64,000 nt of DNA from Deltaproteobacteria bacterium (GTDB lineage: Bacteria > SZUA-79 > Acidulodesulfobacterales > Acidulodesulfobacteraceae). Shown one piece after another: positions 30,382-56,693 of the stretch (within the stretch, counting starts at the first letter, position 1; each line of letters opens with the position of its first letter). The notes below the pieces were generated by a model that did no database searches, was not told the origin of the DNA, and saw nothing but the letters and a program-made list of their open reading frames with translations. The translations under genes were made by a program, and so were the position numbers. The DNA lies in NCBI GenBank assembly GCA_023489335.1, contig JAMDCP010000002.1:124001-188000 (forward strand), written 5' to 3'.

Positions 30382-30708
30382 TTATTTTCTTTAATAATAA
30401 TTATAAGTAATAAGTTAATTTAATTATAAATGTTTCATTATAAATAATTAATAATTACATATAATATAGATATGGTAATATAGATATAGCAATATAGATA
30501 TAGAGTAATACCGATATAGAAGAATTTAAAGGGGAAAATACTTTCTAATGCAGGATTAATCAAAAATAAATCGGATACCTTTTTAGGATATTGCTTGCGT
30601 TTATAAAACCAACGGTTTTATGCAGGCAAAGATGGGCGGGGTATTTATAAAAAAAATAAAAAAAAAGATATCTGATTTATTTCATTTAATTGGAAAAAAT
30701 AAAAAGGG
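30382..30708. other. AT-rich intergenic region without a gene
   Basis: No convincing coding sequence on either strand. It holds simple ATATAG-type repeats near 30460-30510 and one isolated palindromic element at 30589-30640; otherwise I see nothing in it. Confidence 0.6.
30589..30640 (+). repeat. Solitary relative of the tRNA-Gln tail hairpin
   Basis: Hairpin ATAAAACC-AAC-GGTTTTAT flanked by TTGC and GGCAAAGATG. The layout and the GGCAAAGATG end match the hairpin of the tRNA-Gln tail element (TATAAAAGCC-GAA-GGCTTTTATA then GGCAAAGATG at about 21760-21772), but no tRNA end is attached. Confidence 0.6.
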
Positions 30709-30993
30709 GGCGGAGAGAGAGGGATGAGCGTCCTTCGGACGCTAAAAGAAACGAACTTCCCCTTGCGGGCTTCGCCCTTACCGGGGGTTCGAACCCCTCT
30801 CTTACTTATAATAACGAATCTTATGTATAATATTACTTTTTTTAAATAACTGGCGGAGAGAGAGGGATGAGCGTCCTTCGGACGCTAAAAGAAACGAACT
30901 TCCCCTTGCGGGCTTCGCCCTTACCGGGGGTTCGAACCCCTCTCTTACTTATAATAACGAATCTTATGTATAATATTACTTTTTTTAAATAAC
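30709..30993 (-). repeat. Two tandem tail elements (143 nt each) behind tRNA-Ser(UGA)
   Basis: Two units, identical in my reading, with period 143 directly after the tRNA-Ser CCA on the minus strand. Each unit, read in tRNA sense, has an AT-rich spacer of about 45 nt, then AGAGAGGGGTTCGAACCCCC (which is the reverse complement of a tRNA-Ser T-arm), a GGGCGAAGCCC hairpin, an AGCGTCC-GAA-GGACGCT hairpin and a final copy of the tRNA 3-prime end ATCCCTCTCTCTCCGCCA. The outer AGAGAGGG and CCCTCTCT ends can pair. The core is shared with the tail of tRNA-Ser(CGA). Confidence 0.85.
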
Positions 30994-31082
<89 letters not shown>

Positions 31083-55928: not shown

Positions 55929-56020
55929 GGAGAGATGGCCGAGTCCGGTTGAAGGCGATTGACTCGAAATCAATTGTAGGCGCAAGCTTACCGGGGGTTC
56001 GAATCCCTCTCTCTCCGCCA
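55929..56020 (+). tRNA. tRNA-Ser (CGA)
   Basis: Class II tRNA of 92 nt: acceptor GGAGAGA/TCTCTCC, anticodon loop CTCGAAA (CGA), variable arm GTAGGCGCAAGCTTAC, T-arm GGGGGTTCGAATCCCTC, discriminator G and encoded CCA. Two tandem tail elements follow directly. Confidence 0.95.
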
Positions 56021-56318
56021 GTTAAAAGTAAAACAGTTAGTTTTTAATATAAAGCAGGTAAAGGCAAGTCAGAGAGGGGTTTGAACCCCCGGTAAGGGCG
56101 AAGCCCGCAAGGGGAAGTTCGAACGCTTTAAAACTTTCCGAAGGAAAGTTCATCCCTCTCTCTCCGCCAGTTAAAAGTAAAACAGTTAGTTTTTAATATA
56201 AAGCAGGTAAAGGCAAGTCAGAGAGGGGTTTGAACCCCCGGTAAGGGCGAAGCCCGCAAGGGGAAGTTCGAACGCTTTAAAACTTTCCGAAGGAAAGTTC
56301 ATCCCTCTCTCTCCGCCA
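56021..56318 (+). repeat. Two tandem tail elements (149 nt each) behind tRNA-Ser(CGA)
   Basis: Units 56021-56169 and 56170-56318 are identical in my reading; a third unit begins (about 12 nt) and then diverges. Each has an AT-rich spacer of about 50 nt, AGAGAGGGGTTTGAACCCCC (near-exact antisense of this tRNA's T-arm), a GGGCGAAGCCC hairpin, an AACTTTCC-GAA-GGAAAGTT hairpin and a closing copy of the tRNA 3-prime end (ATCCCTCTCTCTCCGCCA). The 51-nt core matches the tail elements of tRNA-Ser(UGA), on the opposite strand. Confidence 0.88.
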
Positions 56319-56357
56319 GTTAAAAGTAAACATCCCTTCTCTTTCGCTGTTTTGGAT

Positions 56358-56693
56358 ATGAAATTTAAATATGATTTGGAATATGTTTTAAAGATTACAA
56401 AATTAGATAAAGACAGAGTTGACGAATTACTGAAATATTTCGACGGACTTCCTTTACAGGCAAAACTTGAGGTATTTTACATAAGTAAAATAATTGAAGA
56501 AGACGATGAATTTGCGTTTCATCAGCACTATTTCGACAAAGAAAAATCTGCGGAATACGAATTTTCCTTATTCATTCTTGGAACCGAAAGGATATATTCC
56601 ATAGAACACAAAGATACCGAAGGTAAAAAACTTTCTCCTTACAAGCTCAATCTAATTTCAAAAATAAAAGAACTTAGGAAGCAAGATGAATGA
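56358..56693 (+). CDS. Hypothetical protein upstream of dsrN-like gene
   Basis: 111 residues, unrecognised, predicted mixed helix/strand and soluble, strongly charged (KFKYDLEYVLKITKLDKD at the start, KIKELRKQDE at the end), without Cys motifs. ATG at 56358 is the first good start; a TTG two codons upstream is possible, and neither has a clear Shine-Dalgarno. Its end overlaps the start of the CbiA-type gene by 8 bases, so it is translationally coupled to it and may be related to siroheme modification. Confidence 0.65.
   Translation: MKFKYDLEYVLKITKLDKDRVDELLKYFDGLPLQAKLEVFYISKIIEEDDEFAFHQHYFDKEKSAEYEFSLFILGTERIYSIEHKDTEGKKLSPYKLNLISKIKELRKQDE

Follow-up and report, generated by a model that had tools for sequence, protein, structure and literature searches.

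Tandem RtT-like units behind two serine tRNA genes of a deltaproteobacterium suggest tRNA-tail modules with a structured insert

The window, a stretch of 64,000 nucleotides from a deltaproteobacterial contig, carries behind two of its tRNA-Ser genes tandem units that each close with a copy of the 3′ end of the tRNA, and these arrays are of the RtT type by plan but not members of the Rfam family RF00391 by score. We give an even chance to the explanation that the units are tRNA-tail modules of the RtT kind, which would be co-transcribed with their tRNA, released as a small RNA and turned over by recombination. The chief rival to this RtT-type reading is a mobile cassette that targets tRNA T-loops, and some of the data point to an insert that is able to move, in certain lineages at least. 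A search of the open-access literature, with subscription papers outside its scope, found no description of such units.

The tRNA-Ser(CGA) gene (55929–56020, forward strand; ARAGORN and Rfam tRNA) is followed on the same strand by unit 1 (56021–56169, 149 nt), unit 2 (56170–56318, identity 1.0 to unit 1) and the first 12 nt of a third, truncated one (56319–56330), and TRF places this array at 56003–56330 with a period of 149 nt, 2.2 copies and 100% matches. On the reverse strand, tRNA-Ser(UGA) (30994–31082; ARAGORN and Rfam tRNA) precedes two units of 143 nt (30851–30993 and 30708–30850), reported by TRF as a 143-nt period with 2.1 copies and 100% matches at 30709–31011; the second ends in CCGCCC, not CCGCCA, and thus has C as the last base of its tRNA-tail copy. 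The two identical 149-nt units in tandem behind tRNA-Ser(CGA) at 56021–56318, and a second array 25 kb off on the opposite strand with a core common to both, had been proposed by a first-pass annotation, and both claims were borne out by TRF and the sequence: the two unit types have 51 nt in common with one difference (by eye), plus the tRNA-tail end. Its description of both arrays as two units plus a truncated third start held at the CGA locus, and no third start was seen at the UGA locus. An Rfam scan of the window at the gathering score returned five tRNAs and nothing else, and matches to plastid 3′ UTR and microRNA families were set aside as inverted-repeat or tRNA similarity.

A 36-nt core, used for the own-genome search, occurred at four places in the 1.80-Mb genome, every one inside the CGA or UGA array (backward control, 0); for the insert in the T-loop, taken by itself, the search covered the window. 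When each of 39 distinct tRNA genes was probed for a copy of its own 12-nt 3′ strand in the downstream 500–600 nt, two, Ser(CGA) and Ser(UGA), had one, and the 37 others had no such tail. Shuffled probes matched in 0.13%, which excludes chance as the source of the tails. The proposed check whether every tRNA-Ser carries the core came out negative, since the genome's own tRNA-Ser(GGA) has none. Relatives have 0–3 units at the same loci. It is possible that the window arrays are an assembly duplication; similar arrays in other assembled genomes, and the RtT arrays of E. coli K-12, argue against this. The genes next to the arrays encode redoxin, CobB/CobQ-like, HemN-like and YaaH proteins, and a further ORF has no Pfam match; neither the arrays nor their neighbours code for a recombinase or integrase.

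Every unit has the same order of parts. It opens with an AT-rich spacer, followed by the T-arm in inverted copy and a first hairpin; next come the T-arm 5′ strand and another hairpin, and the unit closes by repeating the tRNA directly from T-loop nucleotide 59 to the CCA end. The sequence elements are the left arm AGAGAGGGGTTYGAACCCCC, the hairpin GGGCGAAGCCC, the T-arm 5′ strand GGGGAAGTTCG and tRNA nucleotides 59–76, ATCCCTCTCTCTCCGCCA. In unit 1 of the CGA locus, on the forward strand, the spacer (56021–56070) leads into the left arm, which repeats the tRNA T-arm and acceptor 3′ strand in inverted orientation (56071–56090; fold and alignment A3), then hairpin 1, GGGC(GAA)GCCC (56096–56106; fold and covariation), the T-arm 5′ strand copy AAGGGGAAGTTCG (56109–56121), which is the partner of the left arm in the fold, hairpin 2, an insertion where the T-loop would be (56132–56150; fold and covariation), and the direct copy of nucleotides 59–76 (56152–56169). 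For the sense strand of the two own units a three-way junction is predicted, with energies of −43.8 and −44.0 kcal/mol and z values of −3.7 and −3.4. This junction was found in the minimum-energy folds of four of the nine units from six sources (both own units, L112 and E. coli) and was absent from those predicted for L114, L115, L124 and the unit of genome G354; the stretch folded for L157 ended before the right arm.

Across 19 distinct units of the family, 97.0% of the cells pair, and 12 cells had changed on both sides compared to 3.2 in shuffles (0/500), with a control that ignores relatedness. On the sense strand G-U outnumbered A-C cells by 15:4. In 50 distinct units of seven sets, triloops of the form C(GNA)G made up 24/59 on the sense strand and 0/59 on the complement, against a window background of 2/130. 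Loops of the C(GNA)G type are very stable in DNA, so they are evidence of sense-strand folding, be it of an RNA or of single-stranded DNA.

RtT is catalogued behind the tRNA-Tyr of enterobacteria and is released from the tyrT transcript. At tyrT–tyrV of E. coli K-12 there are four copies with the same part order as the window units (GGGGAAGGATGAGAA, AAGGTTCG, hairpins, TAATCCTTCCCCCACCACCA), and the annotated ncRNA rttR (1287066–1287236) begins a few nucleotides past tyrV, its end falling on the CCA of unit one; public records annotate RttR as an sRNA. Of 5426 E. coli genomes, 4655 had RtT unit matches, at 1–9 places each, and the absence of a megablast match in the other 771, like the absence of a unit from 18 of 27 CGA loci in the window's own family, indicates that the unit is dispensable. 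PMC7657543 describes a tandem GA motif in RtT, and copy number at the locus varies, as seen in a 175-bp VNTR row in an excerpt of PMC2658671.

RtT/RttR and the window units have in common tandem units behind a tRNA, a tRNA 3′ end at the end of each unit, a left arm that pairs with it, the T-arm 5′ strand followed by hairpins, and varying copy number. Like members of RF00391, the window units stand behind a tRNA gene whose 3′ end they carry, and a closing stem formed with the tRNA end, a T-arm stem and inserted hairpins appear in the folds of the own units and of the E. coli locus L103. The host, however, is tRNA-Ser and not an enterobacterial tRNA-Tyr, the insert is shorter and the lineage is another one. 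The RF00391 model matched the window units over its full length with 18.8 bits (CGA unit 2), 23.7 and 21.2 bits (UGA units), at E values of 0.02–0.41 and below the cut-off of 45; three full-length matches to units of G120, a genome of an unrelated lineage, reached 25.9–30.5 bits (E 0.007–0.1; same cut-off). At the left junction, where RtT has UGAGAA, the window units have UUCGAAC: the RUGAGAA motif is missing from them, and GUUCGAAC or GUUUGAAC stands in its place. RUGAGAA was found at this junction in 11/12 units of Bacteroidales, 4/4 of E. coli, 4/4 of G354, 3/3 of G120, 1/3 of G297 and 2/28 of the family, whose remaining 26 units have RUUYGAAC. The Rfam model sX4 (RF02223) also covers a tRNA-Ser and a downstream inverted stretch; it gave 26.2 and 26.4 bits in the window and up to 50.8 bits in L150, all below its cut-off of 70, and the score apparently comes mostly from the tRNA part.

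The family sample consisted of 30 genomes, 16 with a tRNA-Ser(UGA) (17 places) and 26 with a tRNA-Ser(CGA) (28 places). Fifteen of the 17 UGA loci held 1–3 units; the unit of G016 is broken, and the contig of G024 stops after 51 nt. Among the 27 CGA loci that were parsed, nine held 1–3 units and 18 none, the latter including G025 and G006, each with a further tRNA copy behind, and G025 also with a run of N. In G025 (L087) this second tRNA-Ser(CGA) copy lies 227 nt behind the first with the N run between them, and may be an assembly join. The first-pass annotation had called for a search for empty sites in sister strains, and such sites do exist in sister genomes: filled and empty loci with the same flank are paired in G020/G021 and G022, in G028 and G018, and in G024 and G026, the empty one being the last of each pair. 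The intact tRNA end kept at the empty sites matches the expected outcome of recombination between direct repeats, which would also suffice for copy-number change at one locus.

Between loci, arrays differ in length by complete units. Full units within one array were identical, except in the UGA array of G023 and where runs of N intervene, and the first units of different genomes had median identities of 67–75%. The own UGA unit contains GGTAAG, the complement of CTTACC, which is found in the CGA tRNA and is absent from the UGA tRNA, and one UGA array of G023 mixes two unit types that are 73% alike; both observations make it seem that units are exchanged between loci. A repeat beginning TACGTAAGCAGGCGTTTACAAAAGCAAGGCTTTTGTG is nested in hairpin 2 of three units of relatives (L066, L081 and L065, from G022, G002 and G026) and is absent from the window, and G018 (L072) has another, different insert within hairpin 1.

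A 113-aa ORF (56352–56693, forward strand; TTG at 56352 or ATG at 56358) lies 34–40 nt past the CGA array. Similar ORFs occupy the same locus in relatives, and it has no Pfam match. Since no terminator-like site was found between the array and this ORF, tRNA-Ser(CGA), the array and the ORF are probably on one transcript, to judge from the sequence. Upstream of tRNA-Ser(UGA) there is a promoter-like site matching at 11/12 positions. In the RtT-type explanation, the unit would be transcribed with its tRNA, and in the case of the CGA array with the following ORF as well; the tRNA 3′-end processing machinery would then cut out the unit, yielding a small RNA some 145 nt long whose end resembles that of a tRNA, comparable to the annotated RttR. 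Recombination between the repeated tRNA ends would let arrays grow, shrink and become uniform, and a unit may pass to another tRNA that has the same 3′ end. That such an RNA acts in regulation linked to tRNA supply is a guess. The E. coli precedent, the likely co-transcription with the ORF and the covariation all favor the RNA reading. It is weakened by scores below the RtT cut-off, patchy presence, the lack of UGAGAA in the window units, the four folds without a junction and the dispersed core in the order of G120; the terminator-like hairpin seen between tRNA and unit in Bacteroidales and G354 also counts against it, because it would stop transcription before the unit.

Similar units were found in other lineages. 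When 84,980 species genomes were scanned for a split T-arm followed by a Ser tail, 27 stretches matched: 13 from the window family and close relatives (two being interrupted tRNA copies), 11 from Bacteroidota (10 with units), one from Opitutia, one from Clostridia, in which no tRNA was seen, and one other. L106, of Bacteroidota, was rejected as a unit because it is a bare tRNA-end duplication, and no tRNA was found at L117. A second pattern gave 28 matches in 22 of 386 varied genomes (backward control, 5), seven of the 28 being tRNA-linked or bearing a Ser tail, and a similar pattern matched in four of 199 genomes of the phylum of G354, G354 among them. A covariance model, R1, was dropped as a survey tool, since ordinary tRNA-Ser genes score up to 23.5 bits with it and weak matches mean little. 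Tails were present at 3/43 tRNAs of G297 (Asp, Glu, Gln) and at 3/23 of G354 (two Arg-UCU, one Ser-GCU). In four genomes picked irrespective of the feature, with 85 tRNAs, tails stood at four of nine tRNA-Ser genes (three in G120, one in G058) and at 0/76 others, so that tail units favor tRNA-Ser and are possibly common, in what is a small sample.

Whatever the tRNA, identity with the upstream tRNA begins at T-loop nucleotide 57, 58 or 59 in all units of the seven sets: at 59 in the family (one at 58), 57 in Bacteroidales (one at 58), 58 in E. coli, 59 in G354, 57 and 58 in G297, and 59 in L114 and L124. This count left out whole tRNA copies and L073 at offset 27, which has one mismatch. The three units of G120, behind Ser-UGA, Ser-GCU and Ser-GGA, have one core and differ in both arms, which pair as GAGGTAGGA with TCCTACCTC, AGAGAGAGGG with CCCTCTCTCT, and GGGGGGG with CCCCCCC. 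In a pairing table the own tRNA was the best or tied-best partner of the left arm for 8/9 units; the G120 GGA unit failed the pairing register of that table, though its GGGGGGG faces CCCCCCC.

The core of the G120 units is also a dispersed repeat, with 85 matches in 6/6 genomes of its order. The 29 distinct copies parsed from fetched loci comprised 11 with the tail CTCCGCCA and 18 without it, a few of the latter resembling worn tails, and many of the dispersed copies are preceded by TTGACCC and followed by CCCTTGA. A dispersed structured repeat, CCCAAGATACCTTAATGT...GCCGTCGCAGACGGC...GCGGGACACGCGAAGCGTAA, was observed at L220 and L264–L293, with up to 30 matches per genome in the order of G120, and no Rfam family of its own was seen for it. 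At L271 an insert of the G120 type splits the T-loop of a tRNA-Ser copy. In the window's family, at L053, L113 and L120, a degenerate tRNA-Ser(CGA) copy lies just upstream of the real tRNA; its anticodon arm and its T-loop are each interrupted by a hairpin of about 20 nt. Mobility of the insert is suggested by the dispersed G120 cores, the split T-loop of L271 and the interrupted copies of L113 and L120.

These observations bear on the mobile cassette, in which the unit would target T-loops as folded single-stranded DNA or by way of a tyrosine integrase of the T-loop class, the tRNA-end repeat would restore the tRNA, and arrays would be repeated insertions. We regard it as rather unlikely, although it is favored by the dispersed copies and by a join that stays in the T-loop, and the interrupted tRNA-Ser copies, the stability of GNA loops in DNA and the mixed unit types of G023 fit it as well. 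An excerpt of PMC1762012 states that class II integrases target the T-loop, where strand exchange probably takes place, and the sites that it describes, such as that of phage Ms6, resemble the window units in having a direct repeat that starts within the T-loop and extends over the 3′ end of the tRNA. The window arrays differ in that there is no integrase in or beside them, the insert is of 140 nt and not genome-sized, and conserved hairpins split the T-arm, unlike a plain attachment site; the own-genome copies are confined to two tRNAs, and the Ser pattern was not found in viral contigs. The earlier proposal of a mobile or gene-converting element at tRNA-Ser 3′ ends stands insofar as the units are tied to these ends at two isoacceptors, vary among relatives and have seemingly been exchanged between loci; specific aiming at tRNA-Ser is not supported, given similar units behind other tRNAs elsewhere and the same plan in E. 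coli RtT, and no recombinase is encoded at the arrays. The RNA and cassette readings may both be true, if a tRNA-tail RNA has taken up a hairpin insert that is mobile.

It is less probable still, and in our estimate quite unlikely, that the units have no function, a past template switch having copied the tRNA end in inverted and direct orientation and slippage making tandem units come and go. The left and right arms indeed repeat the tRNA end, one inverted and the other direct, the units of an array are identical, empty sites are precise and presence is patchy, but compensatory changes, strand-specific loops, a UGAGAA motif common to several lineages and G120 arms that fit different tRNAs around one core speak against it. 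A cis-acting switch, in which the left arm, by pairing to the upstream tRNA's 3′ half, would control maturation of that tRNA or the downstream gene, agrees with a predicted fold of tRNA plus array that pairs the left arm of unit 1 with the T-arm and acceptor strand (z −6.7), but is very improbable given that the left arms of relatives' UGA-locus units make about 4 closing-stem pairs, that tRNAs normally fold before the left arm is made, and that downstream contexts are several.

Returning to the RtT-type modules, we propose tentatively, and with somewhat less than even confidence, that RtT is one of a widespread, unrecognized class of tRNA-tail cassettes, with a split T-loop copy and arms fitted to the host tRNA, preferably tRNA-Ser, which in some lineages spread as dispersed repeats that target T-loop-like sequence. 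Its occurrence at Ser, Arg, Gln, Glu and Asp tRNAs of distant lineages, each time with a join at T-loop nucleotides 57–59, would make the plan a general feature of tRNA genes, and the paired empty and filled sites, together with the three G120 paralogues whose arms follow their tRNAs, make both RNA function and movement directly testable.
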